Shown here piece by piece: positions 4,098 through 63,974 of a DNA stretch of 64,000 bases (its first letter is position 1; every line of letters starts with the position of its first letter). Position numbers and translations under genes: made by a program. This DNA comes from Candidatus Absconditabacterales bacterium (lineage in GTDB: Bacteria > Patescibacteriota > Gracilibacteria > Absconditabacterales > Absconditicoccaceae): positions 1-64,000 of the forward strand of contig CALDTY010000011.1 in the NCBI GenBank assembly GCA_937923605.1, written 5' to 3'. Under the pieces are notes generated by a model. That model was not told the origin of the DNA. It saw only the letters and a program-made list of their open reading frames with translations, and did not search any database.

Positions 4098-4287
4098 GTT
4101 CGTTATGATGTTTTGCATTAGTTTTATATCAATGCTCTGCTCCAATGCAAGCAGTGTTTTATTAGTGTCAAAACACAGTAACGTAAAGGGTTCTAAGCAA
4201 TACAAAGGTTATCACTACATCGGATATAACAGTTTCAAAGCCATCACACTTATCTATCGTCTTGGGTGCAAAACGACGTTATCCGAG

Positions 4288-4322: not shown

Positions 4323-5288
4323 ATGTTAATTCCTTACATCTTAGAAAAATATCTTGAGTACCTAAAAAATGTGAAGATGCTTGAAAATTGAACGATTAAC
4401 GTGTACAAGAGATACTTGAAGCAGTTTGAAGTGTTTTGCAACCAGATGTGAATTACTCACGTCAAAGACATTAATATCTTTGTCATTACCGATTTTATCA
4501 AAGTTATTTCTCAAAGAAAGATCGATCATTCGTCTAGATACTATGTGGAGGGTGTAGATAAATGTATAGATCACAATACTGTCGTGTATTACAATCGTTG
4601 TGTTCGTAAATTTCTAAAGTTCTGTAAAGCCAATAATATCGAGTGTATAAATGCTGGCTTGATCGAAATACCAAAATTGAAAGAGAAAGAAATGCAGTAT
4701 CTACCTCACAAAGACGTGAAGAGAGTTCTTAATGCACCCTTTGAGTATGATAGAAAGAATCTACAAACTCTTAGAAATCATCTCATGTTCTCTGTTGGAT
4801 ATTTTCTTTGATTGAGAGCCACTGAAACATTAGCATTGAATATGAAAGATGTTTTAGAGTATGAATTTGTAACAATTATTTGAAAATGAAATGTAAGAGC
4901 CAAGGTTCGTATTCCTGAGAATATCAAGATATTAGCAGAGGATTATGCAATCGCAAGGGAACATAAATGAAAATTCCAACCTCTCTTTGTTTCTCACAAT
5001 CATTTCAAAGAATGAGAACGTTTGGGATACGATTGACTCAGAGCTGTGACGAGAGTATATTACAAAAAATGATTTAGAGTACTTGAAGATGTAAGATTTC
5101 ACTTTCACATGCTTCGTCATAGTCTAGCAACTCATCTCTTAGAGCAAGACGAAGATATCAGAACAGTGCAACATGTTCTTCGTCATAGGGACATAAAGAG
5201 TACTCAGAGGTACACGCATATCTGATATAAAACCCTCACAAGAGCACAGAATAAGCTAGTTTCAACCTACTATGAAAAGACGAGGTAA
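4323..5288 (+). CDS. Tyrosine recombinase/integrase (XerC/D-like)
   Basis: This 321-aa protein has an N-terminal SAM-like core-binding domain (about residues 1-115) and a C-terminal catalytic domain. Catalytic residues visible in order: the first Arg in GLRATE, the HxxR box in [12 protein letters not shown], the second His in [12 protein letters not shown], and the nucleophile Tyr in RYTHI. TGA encodes Gly in GYFLGLRATE and GKGNV, so the gene is recoded. It is oriented away from the phage-type genes and lies at the right edge of that block, as expected for the integrase of an element. It could also be a housekeeping Xer protein, but the context favours an element integrase. Confidence 0.88.
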
Positions 5289-45052: not shown

Positions 45053-46066
45053 ATGAGCCAAACGAAACTTATTTTCACTTGAGAGTCTACTTATCAAGTC
45101 CATGAAGCTATAAGCTATCGGAAGGATAATTTTATGCAAAAGTATTGAAATGAATGAGTTCATGTCTTTCGTCAAGGAGATATAAATATGTCTGAGTTGC
45201 AGTCATGTGTTTTTGGAGGCTGATTTTTTTCACAAAAATCTTTGGTTATTATCTATTGAGTTCCAAAAGATAATAATACTGAGAATAAACTCACTGCTTC
45301 AGAAAGTGAACCACTTGAGAAAATTCTTGAAGACAACTGGGACAAAATACCTGAAGAAACAATCTTAATCCTTGTGAGCTATAAGCCTGACAAGAGAACT
45401 AGGTCCTGGAAGTTTTTTTCTACCTCAACAACCATAAAAGAGTTTCCTAAGAAAAAGGGGAAAGATCTAACCTTGTTTGTTTTAGATAAGTCAACTTTAC
45501 TTAAATGAGAGAATATAATACACTTGATTGACTCAAAGCAAGCAGAAAAAATCGTATCTATTGTTGGAAATAATTTATTTAATCTACATTATGAATGTGA
45601 TAAAATAGTTCACTATTGTATATTCCATAATCTTCAAAAGATATCTAATGAAACAATTGAATGACTATTGTATCGTCAGGATCACGATAGTTTTAAAGTT
45701 ATTGATACAATCTTTAGCAATCCAGATGCTGCTTTAGAATATATAGGCCAAGCTCAGCAAAACAATCAAAACGAATATGAGTTTCTAGGAATGTTGTATC
45801 GATGATGTAAATTGATATTAAATTTACTTGAACTTGAAAAGCAATGAGTTTCTTCCTCTAAAGAGATGGCAAAAATACTAAGTCTACATCCATTTGCTGT
45901 ATCTAAACATAAAAGTAAATTATGAGAATATAGAAAAATTGAAGACAAAGTAAGTTCATTATTCTTATGACTCCTGCAATTAGAGTATAATCTTAAAACC
46001 TGACAATATCCAGCAGAGTGATTTTGGGTAAAAGTCAAAAGTCTAATATATGGAATTTCACAATAA
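45053..46066 (+). CDS. holA: DNA polymerase III delta subunit-like
   Basis: A 337-aa protein with a typical HolA layout: an N-terminal domain (KLIFTGESTYQVHEAI, GGGFFSQKSLVIIYGVPK), an ATP-free AAA+-like domain, and a C-terminal helical domain (LGMLYRGCKLILNLLELEKQG, LSLHPFAVSKHKSKLGEY). The Walker A motif is degenerate, as usual in delta. It clamps to the clamp-loader complex and opens the beta clamp. It follows the PBP by 23 nt. Its stop is followed by a hairpin whose T-run lies on the minus strand. Confidence 0.8.
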
Positions 46067-46127: not shown

Positions 46128-46667
46128 CTAACTATTCCTTCGTTTTCTTCTTTGTAATTCATCTCTTATACAAGTCGCTTTCTCATAATCTTCTTCATCC
46201 AATGACCCTTGTAAAATATAGGTCAGATGCTTCTCATCATAAGAAGATAAATCAAAATTTTCATTATCAAAAATAGACCTATCTGCAACTAAGATTATGC
46301 TAAATAGATAACCATAGATTAATGCAAATCTGACATCAACCTTGGTGATACATTTATCAATTCCTTTGATCTTAACTTTAGTATAAAATGAATTAGTTTC
46401 GACATCCTTTTGTAATTCAAAATATTCTATCTCTGCATCAAAAGCCTTTAGAATATCTGAGATCAACGAATATGGCTCAAAGAACAATTTTTCAAATGAT
46501 TCTGACTCAAAAAGATCATAATCATTAAAACAAGCATATAACATTTGAAGTTCATCCTTATCTAAGGCTACTTCAATACCTACATCAGATGTGCCTTCAA
46601 AAAGAAAACATTCATTAGGGACTTCTTCTTTGGTAGCAATAAGGCAATTAAGAATTACTTTTTTCAT
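46128..46667 (-). CDS. DUF151 (bifunctional nuclease-like) protein with C-terminal UVR motif
   Basis: A 179-aa protein. Residues 1-140 resemble DUF151/bifunctional nuclease domains (LISDILKAFDAEIEYFEL and TKVDVRFALIYGYLFSIILVA, equivalents of the LTHDLL and RPSDAIALAL regions). The C-terminus SLDEEDYEKATCIRDELQRRK is a UVR motif as in UvrB/UvrC. BFN plus UVR is common in Bacteroidota. All five Gly are GGN; no in-frame TGA. Stop TAG, ATG start 6 nt after the upstream gene. It differs in code usage from holA, 60 nt away. Confidence 0.7.
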   Translation of the reverse strand: MKKVILNCLIATKEEVPNECFLFEGTSDVGIEVALDKDELQMLYACFNDYDLFESESFEKLFFEPYSLISDILKAFDAEIEYFELQKDVETNSFYTKVKIKGIDKCITKVDVRFALIYGYLFSIILVADRSIFDNENFDLSSYDEKHLTYILQGSLDEEDYEKATCIRDELQRRKRRNS

Positions 46668-46672
46668 AAGTA

Positions 46673-47085
46673 TTATTTCTTTGATTTAGATGTAATTAGA
46701 TCTCTAATAGTAGCTGCCTTTTCAAATTCATCATTATCAAGAGCCTTTTTAAGTAATTTTTTAAGATTCGATAACGACATTTTATTAATATCTTTAAGAT
46801 CAACTACTTCACTAGTAAGTTTAGATATTACTTCTTCATAGGCAGGAATAAGTCTATCATTCATAAAATTTGTATATGGTCCTGTCCAATACCCTTTTTC
46901 TTCTTCACTTTCAAGATCTTCAAAATTTTCCTGATAAGCTTCCCATTCACTTATATTCTTTTCAATCATACTTACTGACCTAAAATTTTCTGCATACTGA
47001 CTAATAGCTTTGTCACTAATATTTTGCATAGCGATTTCAGCCATTTCAAATTCACAGGCTTGTTCAAGTTTTTCTAAAAAATCAT
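46673..47085 (-). CDS. UVR-motif protein, probable frameshift at its start
   Basis: The clear part encodes about 130 aa ending LKKALDNDEFEKAATIRDLI, a UVR motif. The natural ATG at 47085 would sit in an ATGA overlap with the previous gene's TGA, but after MIF the frame hits TAG. The coding frame starts one base off, in a T6 run, where one extra T would restore an uninterrupted frame. The next in-frame ATG is at 47044; the track's ORF to 47209 uses antecedent codons and is less likely. All glycines are GGN. It is either frameshifted, a sequencing slip, or starts at 47044. Confidence 0.55.
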
Positions 47086-47672
47086 ATGTTACCAGATATG
47101 AAATTTGTAAAGTACTCTTTAATTTTCTTTTTAGTGAGATCAAATAGAACTTCTCTAAATTTAATATTTGATCGTTGAGAAACATAGTTTGCATAGTACC
47201 AATGAACATTATTGGACATTAATTGGTTTTTTAATAAATCAATGATATCACTACAATAGTGTTCAATTTTATCAATTTGATTTTTCTTGACTGATTCATT
47301 AAATTTTTCAATCAAATCCATATATATTATAATATGCTTATAATGTACTAGGTAACAGATTGGTTTGTCAGAAAATTCAAAAGGTCCAGCATATTGTTTA
47401 TTACTTGGAGTGAAATATGAATGATGATATTTTGGTTGCTCATTTAAACCAAGTGCATCATATATATAATGATACCCATCTTCATTTATTCTAAGTTCAA
47501 TATTATAATCACCAATTTTTCTATCATAGTATGGTTCAGCTTTATTTATATAATATTTACCACAGTGAACATGTACAGAATGTCGGCGAATATATACTGT
47601 TGTACCAGGAACAATGTGACCAATTAATGGTAGTATTAAAACAGGATCAGATTTTTGTGTATCTTTCGTCAT
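47082..47672 (-). CDS. Hypothetical protein ending in TGA
   Basis: A 196-aa ORF that ends with NI and TGA. It has eight Gly, all GGN. With TGA=Gly the host would add about 17 residues before TAG (GFFRKTGTSLG...), which look like random tail. It contains Tyr/His-rich sequence (YYINKAEPYYDRKIGDY; HSYFTPSNK) and no known domain. Apparently designed for the standard code. It is co-linear with the UVR and DUF151 genes. Confidence 0.55.
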   Translation of the reverse strand: MTKDTQKSDPVLILPLIGHIVPGTTVYIRRHSVHVHCGKYYINKAEPYYDRKIGDYNIELRINEDGYHYIYDALGLNEQPKYHHSYFTPSNKQYAGPFEFSDKPICYLVHYKHIIIYMDLIEKFNESVKKNQIDKIEHYCSDIIDLLKNQLMSNNVHWYYANYVSQRSNIKFREVLFDLTKKKIKEYFTNFISGNI

Positions 47673-47689
47673 AGTTTATTTTTAGTATA

Positions 47690-48145
47690 TTATTTAATAG
47701 ATGCTTTGTGCATCATAACTTCTTTAGCAGATTTATAAAACATATCTGACACAAAAATTACATCAACTAATTGATTGACATAAGCCAATATAAGAACATC
47801 CTCTAAATGAATTTTATCAATTATTTTATTGTGACCAAAAACATAAGCATCACCAAAAACTTTCGTAAAAGAAACCGTAGGATCGTTCTTAAAATGACTG
47901 TACTCCGTAACAGATATAAAGTTTTTTAACAGTATATGATGTAATTTTTTATTCCATTTGGACCAAATACTGTTCAGTTGAAAAGCACCATCGCTCAGAT
48001 CTGTTTGGTTTGACAAAAGTAGTTCAGTAAGTTTATGAGTTGAATGAACTGGTAATTCAAACTCTACATTGTTTGGTAACATAAGATTAAAATAATATCC
48101 TCCTTGCTCACTTTCATAGAAAGTAAGATTATTCACTTGTATCAT
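47690..48145 (-). CDS. Hypothetical TGA-free protein
   Basis: A 151-aa ORF ending TAA. Five Gly, all GGN. The first half has beta-like strands (MIQVNNLTFYESEQGGYYFNLML), the second helices. No signal, no TM. No family recognised. Lies 17 nt upstream of the next gene in the same block. Confidence 0.5.
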   Translation of the reverse strand: MIQVNNLTFYESEQGGYYFNLMLPNNVEFELPVHSTHKLTELLLSNQTDLSDGAFQLNSIWSKWNKKLHHILLKNFISVTEYSHFKNDPTVSFTKVFGDAYVFGHNKIIDKIHLEDVLILAYVNQLVDVIFVSDMFYKSAKEVMMHKASIK

Positions 48146-48155
48146 AGAAATTGGT

Positions 48156-48566
48156 TTATTTTGCTTTAATGAAAACTTTTACATGCTTATGAATCATTCG
48201 GTACAATAAAACAAGATTAATGAGATCTGCCCCATTACTATGCTTCCATGTTTTCGACTTATTAACAGAAGCATTATCCGTTAAACTATACTGAATATAG
48301 TGAGCATCATTATGTTTTAAAACAATTTGTTCAAAAACAATATTCTCTTTTTTCTCAAAAAACTGTTTGAATAATGCTTTAGCTTTTGAGTTTGGTAAAT
48401 ACATTATACCCTTTCTATAACATTCATATTCTTGTTTCTGACCATTTGAAAATGGAATTTCGAGTTGATATTCAGAATTTTTGCATAAAAATCTTAACGC
48501 CATATCTGACATAAGATTGTTGTACGCAGAGCTATGCTCTTTTATTATTGATTTTTGTTTACTCAT
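48156..48566 (-). CDS. Hypothetical TGA-free protein
   Basis: About 136 aa if it starts at ATG (MSKQKSII), an internal start in the 155-aa track ORF whose GTG start is less likely. It contains LDFQ/Cys-rich helical segments and the motif GADLINLVLLYRMIHKHVKVF at its end. Three Gly, all GGN. It is the first gene of the block. The coordinates follow the track's stop at 48156. Confidence 0.5.
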   Translation of the reverse strand: MSKQKSIIKEHSSAYNNLMSDMALRFLCKNSEYQLEIPFSNGQKQEYECYRKGIMYLPNSKAKALFKQFFEKKENIVFEQIVLKHNDAHYIQYSLTDNASVNKSKTWKHSNGADLINLVLLYRMIHKHVKVFIKAK

Positions 48567-48661
48567 ATCGTTAGTATTTTTTATAATTAACTGATTTTTT
48601 TTGATTTGAAAGATCTTACACACTCATAAAATCTATGGTTTACATTGTAGATTTCAATGCT

Positions 48662-48940
48662 TTAATATATTTTTATGCTTCTTAATCTATATGAATATCA
48701 AAATTCATCTAATTTTATGTTAAGTTCCTTACGTAAATCTTCTCTTTGCATAAACCACATAGTTTTATCTTCATTGCTCGGTAAGCGAAAAGTTAACACT
48801 TCTCACCTAATAAAACCCTTAATTTCTTCCTTTGAGATTGATTTAGCATTAATATGGTGCATCAAAAAAGATCAAATACTAAGTTTTGAAAGATTTTTTT
48901 GTGCTAGGCGATTCTTGAGAACCTTTTTTATTTCTTTCAT
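48662..48940 (-). CDS. DUF721/DciA-like small protein
   Basis: A 92-aa ORF with three TGA glycines, so it belongs to the recoded set. KKVLKNRLAQKNL, then EVLTFRLPSNEDKTMWFMQREDLRKELN and a C-terminal YRLRSIKIY resemble DUF721 proteins (DciA, which helps load the DnaB helicase). The match is by pattern only. It starts inside the last codons of the WecA-like gene (13 nt overlap). Confidence 0.5.
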
Positions 48941-50031
48941 AACGGCTTCGGTGAATAATTACTGTCTAAACCCTTAACTCGATATAGATATATATTTATA
49001 CCATAAAATATAAACGCCATGGCAAAGAAGACTATCAACTTTCAAATTCTATCATTTCATAATAGTAACATGACAGTCATAAAAAACAATGACCATCACC
49101 AAATAAATATTCTGACTTCTCCTCTATTTCGTCATAAAGAAAGCAATCTATAGTGTAAATGTGAATAATCTCATTTTAAAGGGTTCTTGTTCTTTTTCCA
49201 TCTATCAATAATAACCCATATAGCATCAAATAATGGTAAAGCTAAAACAACAATCATTGTTCAAATTTTAGCTCAACCTAATAATGACAAATATCATAAT
49301 GAAAATCAGAAAAACATAGTTCATACATCTCTCATTAATCACCATGGTTTGTATTCCATAATTGTTCAAAACACTCAAACTACAAAAAGAATAAGAGCAA
49401 CTATTTTTACACGAAGCAATAACTCATTGCGTTCAAAAGTCATAAATTCAAATGTAGGAAACACAACTAATACTAATAAGAGAAATATTGTTAGAAATCA
49501 TATTGTACTCATTCATGTTGCTAATCCATAGATTCAATCAAACCAATTTATAGCATTTATAAATAATACAAACCAAGCAATGGTAGCTATTAACGAAGTG
49601 AATCAACTTAGTTGAATAGCTTGAAATCATGGTATACTGAGATAATCAAGTCAAACTCAAGAAAATCGTCGAGCACCTGCTGCAACTAAGATCTGAACCA
49701 AAAACCTTATTCATGCTGAAAGTGAATACTTCTTATCTACTAAGTATCAAAGCTCATCTATAATTGAAACTAATGCTATAATTCATCCTCACACAAACAG
49801 TCATAAGAACTCTTTTCAAACATAATCTAGATCCAAATAATATTTTGTAATAAGAAGCAATACTAAGAAAGTAATAATTATTGTTACTCATTGTAGAGTG
49901 GGTACTGGATCTCTATCAGGAACATCTTTTCCAGGCTTATCTAAAATATTGAAGAATCTAAAAAATGATATTCATCACCACAGACAAATTGAACAAACTA
50001 TAATATATGTCAGAATTAGAAACAAATCCAT
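48928..50031 (-). CDS. WecA/MraY-family phospho-N-acetylhexosamine transferase
   Basis: A 367-aa multi-pass membrane protein that transfers sugar-1-phosphate to undecaprenyl phosphate. Signature pieces: NILDKPGKDVPDRDPVPT (start of the family), IIDELGYL, INAINWFDGIYGLATG, and the cytosolic GDYSHLHYRLL. These fit WecA/TagO/Rfe-type GT4 enzymes rather than MraY, which has the NLTDGLDGLA form. Many TGA glycines lie in the motifs (WFDGIYGLATG). It likely starts lipid-linked glycan synthesis for the surface polymer. Confidence 0.88.
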
Positions 50032-50128
50032 TATTTTGTATACTAAGGTTCTCAAAAATTTGTTCAAGTTGAGCTTTACAAAAAAGCAAACAAAACTAAA
50101 ATAGAGATTCTATAAACTAATTAAACAT

Positions 50129-52708: not shown

Positions 52709-53059
52709 TTAGTTACATGTAATCTCATCAAATTTTTCTTTCTGTGTTTCAGAAAGAAAGAATGTGTTTAATGTAATGTCAGCATCAATTTTGATTTGTA
52801 TAAAATGATTAACTAATGATATTGTGGCATTTCCAAGTTTTTGAGTAGTATTTTTTAGATAGATTCGTCTACGTTTAATAGGCTCAAATCTAAACCAATC
52901 ATACACTTTTGGTGATCGATTAAAATTCTTCTGAAATTCCTGAATAAAGTGCATAACCAACTGAAATGATTTACCATGATCAATATAGGTTACGGCAAAT
53001 TTTTTAAAATCATTCAGAAAGATTTTATCAGTATTTTCAGAAATGATGTGCTCATGCAT
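52709..53059 (-). CDS. Hypothetical TGA-free protein
   Basis: A 116-aa ORF, ATG 53059 to TAA, with only two Gly (GGN). Aromatic and basic (KVYDWFRFEPIKRRRIYL). No TM or known domain. Follows the membrane gene by 10 nt in the same block. Confidence 0.5.
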   Translation of the reverse strand: MHEHIISENTDKIFLNDFKKFAVTYIDHGKSFQLVMHFIQEFQKNFNRSPKVYDWFRFEPIKRRRIYLKNTTQKLGNATISLVNHFIQIKIDADITLNTFFLSETQKEKFDEITCN

Positions 53060-53069
53060 TCTTAGTTTT

Positions 53070-53813
53070 TTAGTTCTCTAATAAATAGTAAAAATCTCTC
53101 TTTTGCTTCGATCTTTTATCATGTTTATCTTGATTAAATTTATCATAAATCTCATTACTAATAGTGATATAGTTTAACGTGTAGTACTCAATAATATCAT
53201 CCTTAGCAATTAATACTGGAAATGAAGAATATACATCAGAAGAATATTCATATTCGAGATCAATTGTCTCATTTGGATACATATCTTGAAGCATTATTGT
53301 CCTATTTCTATCGGTTAAACCTATTAATTCACAATATTTTGATACATCATTAAGTAATAAAGAAAAACTTTTTCTACAATTGAAATGCAATGCCTCATAG
53401 TACGTACTAAAAGCAATCTGAGTAGTTAAATTAATAAGAATACAACAAACTACAAGAGCGCAAAACACTAAGTATCCAATTACTTTCAAAGGATTATCTT
53501 CAGTTTTATCACAATTATATATTAAACAAGCAATAAATAATAATGCAAAAATCACAATATACAGAAATACATGATGAACAATAATCTGTCTTCTTAGTTC
53601 CTCAAGACTATTTGTTGTTTGTTTTTCAGAACTATAAATTCTGATTGGTTTAAATGAATACTTCTTTTGATGATTATGCTTTCTATATGCAACAACAATA
53701 ACAAAACTTATTACTGCAATGAAAAATAACCATAAAACAGGTACATAATGGAATATCGTCATATCTATTTTTTTTGATTGAATTATATCTTCTTTGACTA
53801 TTAAATATCTCAT
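53070..53813 (-). CDS. Hypothetical TGA-free membrane protein
   Basis: A 247-aa ORF (a shorter form could start at the ATG 51 nt in). Three hydrophobic segments are visible (VPVLWLFFIAVISFVIVVAY; VFLYIVIFALLFIACLIY; VIGYLVFCALVVCCILINL), then a soluble C-terminal domain (NVSKYCELIGL...). Two Gly, both GGN; no in-frame TGA. Unlike the neighbouring dnaE, which uses TGA. It belongs to the same code group as the 57.5-64 kb block. Confidence 0.55.
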   Translation of the reverse strand: MRYLIVKEDIIQSKKIDMTIFHYVPVLWLFFIAVISFVIVVAYRKHNHQKKYSFKPIRIYSSEKQTTNSLEELRRQIIVHHVFLYIVIFALLFIACLIYNCDKTEDNPLKVIGYLVFCALVVCCILINLTTQIAFSTYYEALHFNCRKSFSLLLNDVSKYCELIGLTDRNRTIMLQDMYPNETIDLEYEYSSDVYSSFPVLIAKDDIIEYYTLNYITISNEIYDKFNQDKHDKRSKQKRDFYYLLEN

Positions 53814-57461: not shown

Positions 57462-58571
57462 ATGGAACGAAAAATAGCATTAACCAGCGCATGGTTACTT
57501 ATATATGTAATAGTTACATGTATAATGATGAAACATAAAACTTATCTCTTTCTGAATTATGAAGTGATACATTGGTGGGAGTTGTTTACTACCATATATA
57601 TATTTGCTACATTTAGTTATGTAGTAAATCTTTGGAAACAAATATCTATTCTTATCACTCATACATTTTATGTGATAATGATTGCTCAATTATACTTTCT
57701 TGTGAAATATTGCTTTGTTCAAAGTATACAAAGTACGACATTTATGCAATCTCCTGTGTTCAAAATTGGATGTTTCATTGCATTGTTGATATACTTGTAC
57801 TTTGTGAAAAATCTTCTAGAGAAAGGAATAAAACAGATACCCTTATATAAGTTATTGCTTAAAAGAGTAGAAAAATCTGATACAACAAGAGACGATCAAG
57901 TTTTGAACACAATGGAAAAGTTGATTGATTTTATATTATCAATCATGTTATTTGTACTAGCAATAGTATTCACCTTTGGAGCTAAATCATCTATTGCATT
58001 ATATAGCACTGGTTTAGGTAGTATATTTGTTGTAATGATATCGTACTCATCAAGACATATTTTTAAGAATGGTATTTCTGGAGTAGTTATTTTTGCAAAA
58101 GATATTCTTAGAATTGGTGGTTCTATCACTTACAATGGCTCTAAGGGAGAAATAAAAGAAGTTGAACTTGGTCATATCATTCTTCAAAAAGATAGTGGTA
58201 CGACAATTAGAATACCAAGTGCTGGAATATTGGAAAATGGCTTTTCTAATCATATGAAAATAGATAGGAATGGATTCAATTTTCAAATTCCAATTGAAAA
58301 AAACCGATCTAAGATTGATCAGGCCCTCAAATCTATTGAATCACTACTTACAAAAAAATCAAAAGATTGGAATATCTTAGATAATACTGTTGAAGTAGTT
58401 GTGACAAAAATAGGTTTAAATTCAGTGACTATTGAAGCATCTTTCGATACTAGTGTTATGGAATTTGATAGACAGGTAGATAGTTCAAAGGAGAAAATTT
58501 CAAAGGACTTGGAACAAGAAAAGAAGATTCATAAAGAATTTATAATTAAAATAATAGAATTAAATTTGTAA
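57462..58571 (+). CDS. MscS-family mechanosensitive channel, TGA-free
   Basis: A 369-aa protein with at least five TM segments in the first half, a pore-lining TM3 (LGSIFVVMISYSSRHIFKNGISG) and the MscS beta domain (FAKDILRIGGSITYNGSKGEIKEVELGHIIL, IRIPSAGILENGFSNH). It has 17 Gly, all GGN, which would be very unlikely in a genome where most Gly are TGA. It would form a cytoplasmic-membrane channel for osmotic release. Stop TAA. First gene of a plus-strand run with two more TGA-free ORFs. Confidence 0.85.
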   Translation: MERKIALTSAWLLIYVIVTCIMMKHKTYLFLNYEVIHWWELFTTIYIFATFSYVVNLWKQISILITHTFYVIMIAQLYFLVKYCFVQSIQSTTFMQSPVFKIGCFIALLIYLYFVKNLLEKGIKQIPLYKLLLKRVEKSDTTRDDQVLNTMEKLIDFILSIMLFVLAIVFTFGAKSSIALYSTGLGSIFVVMISYSSRHIFKNGISGVVIFAKDILRIGGSITYNGSKGEIKEVELGHIILQKDSGTTIRIPSAGILENGFSNHMKIDRNGFNFQIPIEKNRSKIDQALKSIESLLTKKSKDWNILDNTVEVVVTKIGLNSVTIEASFDTSVMEFDRQVDSSKEKISKDLEQEKKIHKEFIIKIIELNL

Positions 58572-58593
58572 ACAATAAAATAAACAAAAAAAA

Positions 58594-58980
58594 ATGATAA
58601 CTAAAATAGTAATACTACTTGCCCAACAAGCATTTTTAGATGGTATATTGACCTTTATAAAAAGAAAATATGTCACTAAAGCACTGAAAGCTAATGCAAC
58701 CTTAAAGTTTGAAGCGACTAAGGAAACTGCGATGAAAGCTATAGAAGATATTTATACTGAATCAGCTGGGAATATTGAAAAATTTCAGTCTGAACTACAA
58801 AAATTCTATCTCAAACATATGAAAGAAATCTATGGAGAAGCTAACAGTACAGAGTTAAAAGATGTGTTCAGTATTACATTTGAAAGCTATAAGGAATTGT
58901 GGTCTGATATACATGAAAATCTAGAGACATACGTAGAAAAAATATCTACATTTTTCGATTTCACAAAACGAATAAAGTAA
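58594..58980 (+). CDS. Hypothetical helical TGA-free protein
   Basis: A 128-aa ORF. N-terminal hydrophobic start (TKIVILLAQQAFLDGILTF), then charged helices (KATKETAMKAIEDIYTESAG...). Few Gly, GGN only. It follows the MscS gene by 22 nt and precedes the DUF389 gene. Function unknown. Confidence 0.5.
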   Translation: MITKIVILLAQQAFLDGILTFIKRKYVTKALKANATLKFEATKETAMKAIEDIYTESAGNIEKFQSELQKFYLKHMKEIYGEANSTELKDVFSITFESYKELWSDIHENLETYVEKISTFFDFTKRIK

Positions 58981-58981
58981 A

Positions 58982-60385
58982 TTGATATGGAGAAAAAGAG
59001 TACTCATCAAGAAAAAGCTGAACCAGAAGATTTCCTACATACTATCAAAGTGGAATAAAGCCTTTGAAATATTCTTAGATGATCCTAGGGATTGGTTACA
59101 AGAATGGATAGAATTACGGAGAGAAGATAATGCTAAAAAAAAGATCATTAGTAATATTGTTCATAATGGTACAAAATTCCGTGGTGAACGATTTATAATG
59201 GTACTTGTTGCAGCATTATTTGCAGCTGGTGGATTGTATAAAGACAACTGGGCTTATACTATAGGTAGCATGCTAGCTAGTCCTATGATGTATGCTATTA
59301 TCGGCATTGCATACGCATTGTATGCATTTGACGATGATACGTTCTGGGGTTCTTTTAAGTCATTTATGATACAGTTTGCTATTGGTTTAGGTCTCTCATT
59401 TTGCTTCTTTAGCATTATGTCATTAAACATACCTACTGATGCGCTTTGGGCTAGAACCTACCCTGATGCAATTGATTTGAGTATAGCATTTGCTGGTGGG
59501 TTACTAGGAATATTAGCAAGTATGCATGCAGATAAGATTTCATTAGCAACCGTGGTAGCTGCAGTAGCAATTGGGACATCATTGATGCCACCAATTTGTA
59601 CTATAGGATATGGTTTAGCGACGGGACAACATATTTTTATCTGGGATGCATTTTGGCTATTTGTGATAAATACTGTCATGATTATGCTCGCTAGTATTCT
59701 TATGATATATATTACAGAATTACCAAAGAAACAAGGTATTAGTAAAAATAAACAATTTGTTTATGGTTTAATTGTTTGTGTTGGGATTGTGATCGCAATA
59801 ATAAACTCATTACAAGTTGCTAACTACGAATCAAATAAAGGAGAAATACATACTCTAGTACAAACTGTCTTAAAAGACAAAGGTAGAATGACTAGTTTAG
59901 ATATTAACCATCATCAACAATTTGTAGATGGATTCATGGTAACTAATCCCCTTGTAACTGATACATTATGGAGAGCTTTGGAACAAGAAATAAGTTTAAT
60001 TGTTCCAGATTATGATGTCAAAATTACACAAGTTGCACAGCATCATAAAGATGATAGGATTTCAAGTTTTGCAAAACAACAGAATGAGGAACTTTCTTCA
60101 TTACGGTCACAATTGAAACTTTCTCTGAAAGAAAGGTCTGATATGAAACGGCAAAATGAATATAGAGACTCAATATATACAATAATTCCATCGATGCTTC
60201 GTAGAAGCATACAAAACATTGAAGGAGTAAATGTTGTTAGTTTACAACCTGAAGGAGTTGATTCAATATCTTATGCTGCATTAGTAAAATATGCACCAAA
60301 AAATTGGAAATCAAAAGTACGGATTGAGAACGATTTGGATAGCTTATCACTTAGGTTTCCTAAACTAAGCATTTCGAAATTTTAA
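58982..60385 (+). CDS. DUF389-family membrane protein, TGA-free
   Basis: A 467-aa protein. The core matches DUF389: LVAALFAAGGLYKDNWAYTIGSMLASPMMYAIIGIAYAL followed by five to six TM helices and LATVVAAVAIGTSLMPPICTIG. The C-terminal 150 aa is a soluble coiled region (SSLRSQLKLSLKERSD). 24 Gly, all GGN. The in-frame start is TTG 58982. A second frame from ATG 58987 (MEKKSTHQEKAEPEDF) reads 23 codons into a stop near 59058, so a frameshift may exist there and the true N-terminus may differ. Stop TAA before a terminator. Confidence 0.8.
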   Translation: MIWRKRVLIKKKLNQKISYILSKWNKAFEIFLDDPRDWLQEWIELRREDNAKKKIISNIVHNGTKFRGERFIMVLVAALFAAGGLYKDNWAYTIGSMLASPMMYAIIGIAYALYAFDDDTFWGSFKSFMIQFAIGLGLSFCFFSIMSLNIPTDALWARTYPDAIDLSIAFAGGLLGILASMHADKISLATVVAAVAIGTSLMPPICTIGYGLATGQHIFIWDAFWLFVINTVMIMLASILMIYITELPKKQGISKNKQFVYGLIVCVGIVIAIINSLQVANYESNKGEIHTLVQTVLKDKGRMTSLDINHHQQFVDGFMVTNPLVTDTLWRALEQEISLIVPDYDVKITQVAQHHKDDRISSFAKQQNEELSSLRSQLKLSLKERSDMKRQNEYRDSIYTIIPSMLRRSIQNIEGVNVVSLQPEGVDSISYAALVKYAPKNWKSKVRIENDLDSLSLRFPKLSISKF

Positions 60386-60400
60386 TTTATTAATGTATAA

Positions 60401-60433
60401 AAAAAGGCTTGGCATAATTTGCCAGGCCTTTTT
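60401..60433. terminator. Terminator after DUF389
   Basis: AAAAAGGCTTGGCA-TAATT-TGCCAGGCCTTTTT, an imperfect stem with A-run and T-run. It is shared by the plus-strand MscS-DUF389 genes and the minus-strand array. Confidence 0.8.
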
Positions 60434-60454
60434 ACTTATTTAATATTAAATAAC

Positions 60455-61052
60455 TTATAACCAAGGAGAGAACATTCCTACTCTTTCCATATAACCTTCA
60501 TAAGCATCATGAAGTTCTTTCATTTGCATTTCTTCAAGTTTGCAAGTTATATACCAAAGTGGGATAAATAATCCCAATATGATAAACCAAGTCGAAGAAA
60601 AGTAAATTAAACCCAGTCCTCCTAGTAGCAAATACATGCTCACATACATAGGAAACATAGGTAGGGCCTTCCAATTGCGTTACATAGTCATGACTATCAG
60701 TAGTAAAGTTATCAGTCCCAAGCTTTGGAAAAAATATATCTACATTATCCATAGTGTATTCTGCACTATCGTTCCTAAAAGGAGGTATAGTAAAATTATT
60801 ATTGAAAGAATTCACCTTTGCAGTCAATAGATTCCATATTCTACCAAATCGTTTCTTACTGTAATGCATCTTATATCCAATCACTGGATACAGCACAATA
60901 AGAAGAAATGAACCTATCGATGCTATGTGTAGTTGTATATGCTCAGTCATCTTAAACATACTTATCACTAAGAATATGATAGCTGAAGATCTTATTAACA
61001 TCATTTTTAGATGTAAATCTTTAATCTCATTAAATTCGTTAACTTGGTTCAT
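60455..61052 (-). pseudogene. Split membrane methyltransferase-like gene (ICMT/PEMT type)
   Basis: Two minus-strand ORFs overlap in different frames: 60534-61052 (N-terminal membrane part, MNQVNEFNEIKDL...) and 60455-60658 (FPMYVSMYLLLGGLGLIYFS, KLEEMQMKELHDAYEGYMERV). The latter is the C-terminal end of an isoprenylcysteine/phospholipid methyltransferase-like domain, with its EE-x-L-x-Y-x2-Y-x3-V-x3-P pattern. A one-base shift near 60660 joins them to one protein of about 195 aa. So it is likely a frameshifted gene or carries a sequencing error. TGA-free, Gly as GGN. Confidence 0.5.
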
Positions 61053-61560
61053 ATACTAATTTTTTTGTGTGAGTATGATCTACTACCCCTGGAACGACTT
61101 TATCTTTGTTCCAAAAGCAGTAGGGAATATTATGTTTAATAAGAATTTCTTTAATCTGCTCTCCTCCGATACATCTTATAGTATCAAGAGGAAGTTTCTC
61201 AGTACAACAATGTACAAAAGAAGAATGAAAGTGCGAATGAAATTTATCCTTAACGAACTTATTCAGTTCAAGAAGTAATTTTTCCTTTTTCACAATATCT
61301 AATGCTAAACCACATGCTGTTTGATATAATTTTACTATACAAAGCAATTCAAGCTTACTTTCAATGCCCAAGAGAAAAAGATATTTCTCCTTCTTAGATA
61401 GTGAAGATGTAAAGACAAAATCTTTTAGGTCCGTGCTTGACTTAGATATGCTATCTTTTATAGACTTAGCTGCATAAAATATTGTTATAGCTGCCATACT
61501 TACCGTAGTTGATATTGCGACAATAATACACATTTCAAGTATTTTATCTGATAATTCCAT
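61039..61560 (-). CDS. Membrane-anchored paralog family, copy A
   Basis: A 173-aa protein. N-terminal TM (CIIVAISTTVSMAAITIFYA), then a soluble domain with VKLYQTAC, TIRCIGGEQIKEIL and IPYCFWNKDKVVPGVV. The same landmarks occur in copies B and C and faintly in D. TGA-free. Starts with ATGGAATTATCA, as does copy D. The soluble domain has two conserved Cys. No known domain recognised. It ends just before, and overlaps by 14 nt, the split methyltransferase-like gene. Confidence 0.6.
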   Translation of the reverse strand: MELSDKILEMCIIVAISTTVSMAAITIFYAAKSIKDSISKSSTDLKDFVFTSSLSKKEKYLFLLGIESKLELLCIVKLYQTACGLALDIVKKEKLLLELNKFVKDKFHSHFHSSFVHCCTEKLPLDTIRCIGGEQIKEILIKHNIPYCFWNKDKVVPGVVDHTHTKKLVYEPS

Positions 61561-61590
61561 GTACTAATTTTTTCGTTTTAATAATGATTT

Positions 61591-62463
61591 TTAAAATCCT
61601 AAGTATTCAAGTATAGTTACTCTTCCTTTCCAGAAATCGCCTTTATTTGCAACTCCTTCTTTAGAAAAAGCTCCATACTCTAGCACTTCAATCTTTTTTC
61701 CGTTAAGTAACTTCAATTCTATAAAGTTTCTCAGGCCTGCTCTTCCTACAAATTTTTTCTCAACATTCTGTATAACCCCAGATATCTTTATACATCTAAA
61801 GTATAAAAAAATCATAAAGATAAATACACATGTAATGAAAATGAATGCAGGAGTTGGTAAATGCATCTCAGACTTTGGATAACGGTAGACATGAAGCACC
61901 ATAGAATACAGAAGAATAATTGGTGTAAATTTTACTATCTCTCCAAATATTCCAGTACTTGTAGATACGTACCGTTGAGACTCCTCTATTACTCCTGGTA
62001 AGATTTGATCTTCTCTCCAAAAGAAATAAGGTATCTCAAGATCATTTACTATCTCTTTCACTTGCGCTCCGCCAATACAATCTACAGACTCTATTGATAA
62101 GTTTTCCGTAGTACAAGCTAACTTGACTCTTAGGTGCTGAGATACAAAAACATCATTTACATATGCATCTAGTTGCTTAAGAATCCGTCTCTTTTTATCC
62201 AGTGGCATAGAGCTTGCACATGCTGCTTGATATAACTTCTTAATATATACTAGCCTTAAGCCCTTTGTTCTCCCTATCAAAAAGAGAATTTTGACATTAA
62301 TAGGTAGAAATGAACTATAGATGTACTTTCGAAACTCAGATGTTGTATGTAAGTGATTTTCTCTTACCTCTCTTAAATATATAAATGAAAAGATACATAC
62401 ACAACATACTATAGCAGTTATCGTTCCAATTATAATTCCTCCAATAATTTGTGATAATAACAT
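61591..62463 (-). CDS. Membrane-anchored paralog family, copy B (extended)
   Basis: About 290 aa from ATG 62463. It has an N-terminal TM (GGIIIGTITAIVCCVCIFSFIY), the shared domain (IKKLYQAACASS, SVDCIGGAQVKEIV, IPYFFWREDQILPGVI) and an extra C-terminus with two more TM helices (FTPIILLYSMVLHVY; FIFITCVFIFMIFLYF) and a soluble tail (RNFIELKLLNGKKIEVLEYGAF). TGA-free. The track's start at 62505 would overlap the preceding ORF; ATG 62463 is chosen. It is the only copy with the C-terminal extension. Confidence 0.6.
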   Translation of the reverse strand: MLLSQIIGGIIIGTITAIVCCVCIFSFIYLREVRENHLHTTSEFRKYIYSSFLPINVKILFLIGRTKGLRLVYIKKLYQAACASSMPLDKKRRILKQLDAYVNDVFVSQHLRVKLACTTENLSIESVDCIGGAQVKEIVNDLEIPYFFWREDQILPGVIEESQRYVSTSTGIFGEIVKFTPIILLYSMVLHVYRYPKSEMHLPTPAFIFITCVFIFMIFLYFRCIKISGVIQNVEKKFVGRAGLRNFIELKLLNGKKIEVLEYGAFSKEGVANKGDFWKGRVTILEYLGF

Positions 62464-62482
62464 ATTTTTAAATTTAATTTGC

Positions 62483-62674
62483 TTATATAATAATATCTTT
62501 TGCATAAACTGTTATCCCACACTTTCTTGCCTCTCTAGCTAGATCAGCATTACTCAGTTTATTTACTAGAGAACGAACCCATTTTTTAAAATCCTTACCT
62601 ATAGTATCCATATGTAGTCCATGGTATCCCCAGGTGACTCTCATAATTTCGTCGACTATATCAATTTTTTTCAT
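62483..62674 (-). CDS. Small hypothetical protein
   Basis: A 63-aa ORF (MKKIDIVDEI, ends in TAA). No TM. TGA-free but contains a few Gly as GGN. Sits in the array between copies B and D with tight spacing, 3 nt from its upstream neighbour. Function unknown. Confidence 0.45.
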   Translation of the reverse strand: MKKIDIVDEIMRVTWGYHGLHMDTIGKDFKKWVRSLVNKLSNADLAREARKCGITVYAKDIII

Positions 62675-62677
62675 TGT

Positions 62678-63370
62678 TTATTGGTTTAGTTGTTTTTTAA
62701 TTTGATCTACCTTAATTTTAGTCAGTTGTATATCTCTCCCAATAGCCTTTAGATCATTATCTAGAAACTCTTTGTTCCAAAGATATGAAGGAATTGTATG
62801 TATTCGAATAAAACTCTCTTGATACTCTGGCTCAAAACAATCAAGCGAAGATAAAAATTCTATATCCCAAATTTCCCCAGGACAATCTTCTAACCTAATC
62901 ATATTAGGGATATAGTAACTCTGGAAATAATCATGTATATCGATATAGAGTTGCTTTTTATTTGATGTACATGGTACAAAGTAAGTAAGATGAAATAATT
63001 TTTGCAAATATACATCATCTACATTGATACCTAAACCAAAAATAAGTCCAATTTTTATATGTAACGGCGCAGGCAGTTTCCATATGATTTTTCTCATGTT
63101 TGGATAACATCTTCTCAATCTATAGGATATAGAATGTTGAAAATCCTTAATCTTCAACGTACCAATAATCAAAACAAAGATAAATATTGCTACCACTACA
63201 AAATAATACAGGGTATACAAATTTAAATCTTTTGGATATAGAGATCCGTCTGTAAATTCTTCTGGTGCAAATTGTCTCATCACAAATGAGACAAGACACA
63301 TAATGAATGCATACATAGGTATCCACCAATACTCACTAATAATTTTTCTCATGTTAACTGATAATTCCAT
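62678..63370 (-). CDS. Membrane-anchored paralog family, copy D (diverged)
   Basis: A 230-aa protein with two TM segments (YAFIMCLVSFVMRQF; LYYFVVVAIFIFVLIIGTL) and a soluble domain whose spacing fits the array: YLQKLFHLTYF, FLSSLDCFEP, IPSYLWNKEFLDNDL. The Cys/Gly residues of the CIGG motif are not kept. Start ATG 63370 (MELSVN) overlaps copy C by 17 nt; ATG 63352 is an alternative. TGA-free. Confidence 0.55.
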   Translation of the reverse strand: MELSVNMRKIISEYWWIPMYAFIMCLVSFVMRQFAPEEFTDGSLYPKDLNLYTLYYFVVVAIFIFVLIIGTLKIKDFQHSISYRLRRCYPNMRKIIWKLPAPLHIKIGLIFGLGINVDDVYLQKLFHLTYFVPCTSNKKQLYIDIHDYFQSYYIPNMIRLEDCPGEIWDIEFLSSLDCFEPEYQESFIRIHTIPSYLWNKEFLDNDLKAIGRDIQLTKIKVDQIKKQLNQ

Positions 63371-63881
63371 GTGCTCTACTTTTTTTTACGTTATCAAATA
63401 GTGTTACTGTTTCTTCAACTCCATTAACTAAATCGCCAGCTTTCCAAAAGAAATTTGGCACTCGTACTTTTTTAACCAGAGTCATAATATGATCTCCACC
63501 AAGACATTCCAAGTCATTTCTTTTAATTTTTCTAATTTGCTCTTCACGAGACGCTTGGGTAGCCATTTTATAATGATGGTTTAAATTATTGATGATATAG
63601 TTCTGTAGTAATGCAAAAAGTAATAATCTATTGTCATCTTCTAATTCTATCAAACAAGCAGTTTGATAAAGTTGCTTAATATACATCATCTTCAATCCTT
63701 TTCGTTGACCAGTATAAAACTTCCATTTAATATTCTGTGGCATCGTACTTGCTTCGACGAAACATCTAAGCGCCTTATATCTTGGGCTATATATTGTTAC
63801 AAAAGCCTTGAGATAAGGGTATAAGATAATTAATAAAATTGTTGCAGCTACACACTGCAGGGTAATTGTTAGATAGTTCAT
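63354..63881 (-). CDS. Membrane-anchored paralog family, copy C
   Basis: About 175 aa from ATG 63881; the track's start at 63953 is earlier. It has an N-terminal TM (TLQCVAATILLIILYPYL) and the shared domain (IKQLYQTACLIEL, DLECLGGDHIMTLV, VPNFFWKAGDLVNGV). TGA-free. Stop TAA at 63354. It is the outermost gene of the array; the sequence beyond 63953 continues to the window edge without another gene. Confidence 0.6.
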   Translation of the reverse strand: MNYLTITLQCVAATILLIILYPYLKAFVTIYSPRYKALRCFVEASTMPQNIKWKFYTGQRKGLKMMYIKQLYQTACLIELEDDNRLLLFALLQNYIINNLNHHYKMATQASREEQIRKIKRNDLECLGGDHIMTLVKKVRVPNFFWKAGDLVNGVEETVTLFDNVKKSRAHGIIS

Positions 63882-63974
63882 ATGATTATAATTATATTTT
63901 TTTATTAATAGTTTATTAACAAGAAAAATGTAAGAAATGAGCATACATTTCATGTCTTTTTCTATTAATGAAGA

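Follow-up and report, generated by a model that had tools for sequence, protein, structure and literature searches.

Phages of Gracilibacteria and Absconditabacteria that are compatible with code 11 carry TGA-free genes, and where one of their genes stops at TGA, a second stop is reported to follow closely (PMC10746230). Foreign genes have also been described in the genome of a host that itself uses code 25. Vampirococcus lugosii holds 126 horizontally acquired genes, and it has been proposed that UGA read-through hampers the expression of foreign DNA; reading UGA as glycine has been argued either to isolate such bacteria genetically or, through that read-through, to protect them from foreign genes (PMC8080830). 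Donor TGA stops in acquired genes are the exact sites at which this protection idea can be tested. Here we describe such a site in 64,000 nucleotides (hereafter the window) of a contig from Candidatus Absconditabacterales (CALDTY010000011.1). The TGA at 47082-47084 on the minus strand is probably the original stop of a gene acquired, together with four neighbours, from a standard-code bacterium.

The host itself uses TGA as a glycine codon, and does so heavily. Across 34 host genes in the window, TGA makes up 745 of 961 glycine codons (~78%). A profile search for prfB in this genome (G000) returned one class-I release factor only, which fell below the prfB cut-off and has RF1 features (PDT motif). 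The same search in four congeners and in G297, a member of another genus, likewise gave only an RF1-type match and no release factor 2; all ten control genomes gave prfB matches. The genome is in 34 contigs and probably metagenome-assembled; because it is 83.5% complete, the absence of prfB rests also on the four congeners. A 74-nt tRNA with a UCA anticodon, acceptor stem GCGGGTA/TACCCGC and discriminator U is labelled SeC by ARAGORN, and from its glycine-type acceptor features it looks like a tRNA-Gly. TGA-rich genes, a UCA tRNA and no detected RF2 together place this genome among those that translate TGA as glycine. TGA use differs strongly within the one genus: in host-type genes the congeners G287 and G288 (samples L047, L048, L097-L108 and L121-L140) encode only ~40% of glycines by it, whereas the figure for this genome is 68-78%.

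Five adjacent minus-strand genes at 46128-48623 depart from this pattern: all 25 of their glycines are GGN and none is TGA, where the host would use TGA for 78% (P = 6e-17). Gene 1 (48156..48623) encodes 155 aa from a GTG at 48623, although its likely start is the ATG at 48566, and gene 2 (47690..48145) encodes 151 aa; both end in TAA and neither belongs to a recognised family. Gene 3 (47082..47672) encodes 196 aa of no recognised family, has eight glycines, all GGN, and stops at the TGA considered here. Gene 4 (46673..47081) carries a UVR motif near its C-terminus, and its frame is open upstream to 47220; the approximate range 46673-47082 holds two TGA out of frame, and the UVR ORF itself has none. 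Gene 5 (46128..46667) ends in TAG, likewise lacks TGA and has a C-terminal UVR-like motif (DEEDYEKA..IRDEL). The UVR motif (PF02151) scores 23.5 bits in 46676-47209, above the curated cut-off of 21.5 bits, and 13.1 bits in 46131-46667, below it. The gene 5 motif is closest to Bacteroidota proteins, and its ten confirmed genome matches all lie at Bacteroidota loci (10/10); judged from the sequence of this motif, Bacteroidota is the sole hint of a donor. Apart from glycine, the codon usage of the cassette resembles that of the host, as expected of a donor with similarly low GC. The cassette genes often lie close together or overlap slightly.

The genes on either side are TGA-rich and belong to the host. 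On one side lies holA, encoding the DNA polymerase III delta subunit (45053..46066, plus strand), with 13 TGA glycines. On the other are two minus-strand genes, one of 92 aa (48662..48940) with three TGA glycines and one for a WecA/MraY-like membrane glycosyltransferase, named by eye (48928..50067), with 30; the latter is present in 35 of 37 genomes searched. In G297 (locus L050), holA is followed directly by the homologue of the 92-aa gene, leaving an empty site. In G287 (L047) this gap is occupied by two other TGA-poor genes. Under table 11 each of them first stops at a TGA (4712-4714 and 4225-4227), and the host code reads through both; from the TGA at 4712-4714 the next GTG or ATG is ~10-16 nt away. 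In G288 (L052) the occupant is a TGA-poor ORF bearing a UVR motif, and the contig ends there in a dispersed repeat. The cassette thus sits between host genes at a site that relatives leave empty or occupy differently, and the gap beside holA has probably received insertions repeatedly within the genus. The G288 repeat covers the first ~40 residues of an ORF, with copies mostly 80-95% identical at many contig ends (for example L052 near 3944, and contigs C3, C9, C58, C63, C77 and C105), and it borders the insertion site beside holA; a mobile element that interrupts the assembly is the probable explanation.

We examined the letters at the end of gene 3, which on the minus strand read ...GGT AAC ATA TGA TTT TTT AGA AAA ACT TGA.... 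An initial annotation had described this ORF (47672-47082, 196 codons) as ending ...ISGNI-TGA with an ATG overlapping the stop as ATGA, and the sequence bears this out. It was equally right that the overlapping ATG (47083-47085) yields only M-I-F before a TAG, reading ATG ATT TTT TAG across the T6 run at 47076-47081 (minus strand), and that the UVR frame lies one base away. Runs of exactly six A or T number 136 in the window. The UVR-motif ORF, whose TAA is at 46673, occupies the remaining frame: +1 from the upstream gene, and not the one that the ATG opens. The ATGA is weak evidence in itself, since in ~27% GC DNA about one TGA in three would have an A before it. Translational coupling would have the overlapping ATG open the downstream gene; here it runs into the TAG. 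Codon statistics switch frame at the TGA; this switch and the TGA-free gene body make it probable that the donor gene ended there. In the UVR frame the coding signal sets in with the codon directly behind the TGA, and the stretch upstream does not look coding (4th percentile), so that the UVR gene appears to open at the junction with no conventional start codon. Programmed +1 frameshifting of the RF2 type is recognised by a slippery codon, a TGA and an SD-like stimulator that homologues conserve; the site here has ATA TGA in place of CTT TGA, and no homologues were found.

Host ribosomes would be expected to read the TGA as glycine and to continue to the TAG at 47016-47018. The predicted tail (47016..47081, minus strand; GFFRKTGTSLGIGNGGNRYAKY) is 22 residues long including the TGA glycine, rather than the roughly 17 first estimated. 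We consider it very unlikely that the TGA is a genuine glycine codon of a host-adapted gene and the tail functional. Such a reading fits the host code and a TAG that closes the frame soon afterwards, but the eight remaining glycines of gene 3 are all GGN, and the tail frame scores as strongly non-coding, with log-likelihood ratios of -8.9 over the 11 codons of 47081-47047 and -35 as far as 46980. The tail overlaps the UVR gene out of frame, and that overlap accounts for its five TGA among 22 codons. It is also improbable that the length of the T6 run, or the entire cassette, is an artefact of metagenome assembly or sequencing. The genome is incomplete and fragmented, and some long-read data are error-prone at short homopolymers; against this, the window's host genes are unbroken and of good length, and the separately assembled congeners G287 and G288 have cassettes at the same site. 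TGA-free blocks moreover alternate with TGA-rich host genes at four places in the contig, which rules out a single chimeric join as the source of the cassette.

Where translation of the UVR gene begins bears on the proposal that a lost T in the T6 run had shifted its frame. The part of this proposal that stands is that coding in the UVR frame appears to begin at the TGA with no conventional start; the lost T itself is unproven. A base lost near the T6 run, in a gene that opened with the overlapping ATG, could account for the arrangement. So could a single gene split in two, or initiation at CTG 47095 or, were the coding signal ahead of it due to chance, at ATG 47044. The searches described below gave no homologue of 47085-47672, or of the N-terminal part of the UVR protein, that would separate these readings. 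The candidate starts in the UVR frame are ATG 47209, 47194 and 47185, CTG 47095 and the internal ATG 47044. It is possible, if rather unlikely, that nothing is broken, the gene starting at ATG 47044, ~37 nt past the TGA, or at CTG 47095, and the T6 run being irrelevant. Such a reading bears on nothing but the UVR start, and the TGA could still be a donor stop under it; ATG 47044 is in frame, the operon spacing would be ordinary, and the cassette genes are often tightly spaced or slightly overlapping. CTG starts are rare, however, and no Shine-Dalgarno-like sequence was seen upstream of ATG 47044. The 11 codons between the TGA and that ATG (FLEKLEQACEF) also score as coding in the UVR frame, with a log-likelihood ratio of 2.4; this signal is suggestive only, at the 42nd percentile of true coding and a level reached off-frame in 4-7% of cases. 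Peptides from FLEKLEQACEFEMAEIAMQ would tell whether that stretch is translated. Alternatively, one protein of ~330 aa with a C-terminal UVR motif may have been split by a frame change into the 196-aa and UVR ORFs, leaving the TGA and the ATGA as by-products of the shift, a history that we regard as unlikely. It would explain why coding in the UVR frame reaches right up to the TGA although a normal start codon is missing, and it fits the position of the motif at or near the C-terminus of both 46131-46667 and the same-site G288 ORF; in the predicted read-through product the join runs helix into helix, at very low confidence. No homologue with the fused architecture was found, however, the read-through model has a pLDDT of 38 and is uninformative, the internal-repeat signal is marginal (P about 0.02), the similarity of the G288 ORF is confined to the UVR motif, and the same locus in G287 holds two separate genes with a TGA between them.

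Searches for relatives of the cassette proteins covered several collections. Neither the phylum (286 genomes) nor 395 Bacteroidota genomes, nor IMG/VR, plasmids or phages, yielded a homologue of the 196-aa protein, which leaves its true C-terminus and its donor unverified. Its one weak Bacteroidota match (L115) was rejected; the stretch has an in-frame TAA and by eye lies inside a lipoprotein gene. The N-terminal part of the UVR protein gave chance-level matches only in the 395 Bacteroidota genomes, and a donor with a homologous cassette was not identified, the UVR motif alone pointing to Bacteroidota. No cassette protein matched PHROGs better than E 0.04, and no phage hallmark was seen. By eye it was tempting to take the genes at 46131, 47693 and 48159 for divergent bifunctional nucleases, but the idea was rejected: profile comparison did no better than shuffles, there was no Pfam match to the BFN domain (PF02577), and the structural model was of low confidence with no fold match. 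Nor did the same-site ORF of G288 qualify as a full-length homologue of 46131, since the similarity does not extend beyond the UVR motif (P = 0.15 once that is left out).

The account that we favour, of a stop codon brought in with its gene, would run as follows. A cassette from a standard-code bacterium, in which two genes were tightly packed at what is now the junction, would have inserted between holA and the small conserved gene. In the new host the upstream gene would be translated through its stop, and its 22 added residues would be simply the UVR gene read out of frame; gene 3 protein has thus probably gained a meaningless tail. The UVR gene may have lost its conventional start at the junction, through a one-base change in the T6 region or by using a non-ATG start. 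With termination moved into the UVR gene, coupling of the 196-aa and UVR genes should weaken in the host. The initial view, of a genuine stop in a gene pair designed for the standard code, has good support from the TGA-free cassette and the failure to find prfB, and also from the empty site in another genus and the two TGA-ended genes of G287. The related genomes, which had been named as a place to look for the intact pair, held no homologue of it; at the same locus, G287 shows a similar arrangement.

We surveyed 776 kb of this genome (59%) for other genes of this kind. The share of glycines encoded by TGA is bimodal by gene, the zero bin taking 71 of the 595 scored ORFs and the bulk of the others peaking at 0.7-0.8, and a separate filter gave 87 TGA-free genes against 513 host genes. 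These 87 or so genes look like standard-code immigrants. Under the standard code about eight of the 87 stop at TGA, one of which (L157) may be a cut host gene, compared with 15 of 213 in a low-GC Bacteroidota control (Fisher P = 0.63); the comparison rests on this genome, because the G287 and G288 censuses are noisier, with hosts that use TGA for only ~40% of glycines. The rate matches that of the control, so donor TGA stops are apparently not purged. A donor TGA stop does not in itself mean decay; such stops occur genome-wide at a donor-like rate (8/87 versus 15/213). The earlier suggestion that the pair is decaying or mis-sequenced is unshown. The back-up stops of the eight genes lie 1-45 codons away; the median in the standard-code control is 8.

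The same contig has three further TGA-free blocks (52709-53813, 57462-60385 and 60432-63953). The block at 57462-60385 encodes a mechanosensitive-channel (MS_channel_2nd) protein and a DUF389 protein, and 61039-63953 holds four tandem paralogous putative membrane proteins. Within 60432-61052, the ORF 61052-60534 is a second TGA-free gene with a TGA stop, to which host reading would add 34 residues. G288 has nothing in the 52-54 kb gap, and its ssb-adjacent site carries other TGA-free genes, among them one for a PP2C-type phosphatase and one for a kinase-like protein. Elsewhere in this genome, TGA-free genes occur on contigs C3 (L079, 15867-17048), C2 (L078, 15326-16906) and C1 (L077, 353-6382), and include genes resembling adenylosuccinate synthase (divergent) and aldehyde dehydrogenase, an ABC transporter pair and an OmpA-like gene, all far below curated cut-offs.

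Whether recoding TGA to glycine keeps foreign genes out can be judged against these counts. No read-through filter is visible in the sample (8/87 versus 15/213), which suggests that read-through protection, if real, does not purge TGA-stopped immigrants. We think it quite possible, if somewhat short of probable, that within this genus the recoding is no filter at all on incoming genes, whose tails are presumably translated with glycine. Were this so, standard-code genes would form ~1/7 of the genes and would end in TGA as often as in their donors, with no additional back-up stops, and at 47082 the tail would run into the next gene and uncouple it.

Set beside known systems, the cassette shares some traits with each. 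Its UVR motif at 46676-47209 passes the Pfam cut-off and aligns it with UvrB/UvrC (UVR) motif proteins; 46131-46667 shares with the Bacteroidota bifunctional-nuclease-like proteins that have a C-terminal UVR motif only that motif, their N-terminal domains showing no significant relation. Like the code-11-compatible phages, its genes have no in-frame TGA and can be read in both codes; unlike them, it is chromosomal and lacks a phage hallmark, and its back-up stop is 22 codons off, while the back-up stops of the eight TGA-stopped genes seem to lie no nearer than those of the control (PMC10746230). That genomes using code 25 contain foreign genes is already known, and the 47082 locus is a concrete instance. 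As in Vampirococcus lugosii, foreign genes reside in a genome that reads TGA as glycine, and the site is a natural case of the proposed read-through; unlike the case made there, the acquired genes here still show donor TGA stops at the rate of the standard-code control (PMC8080830).
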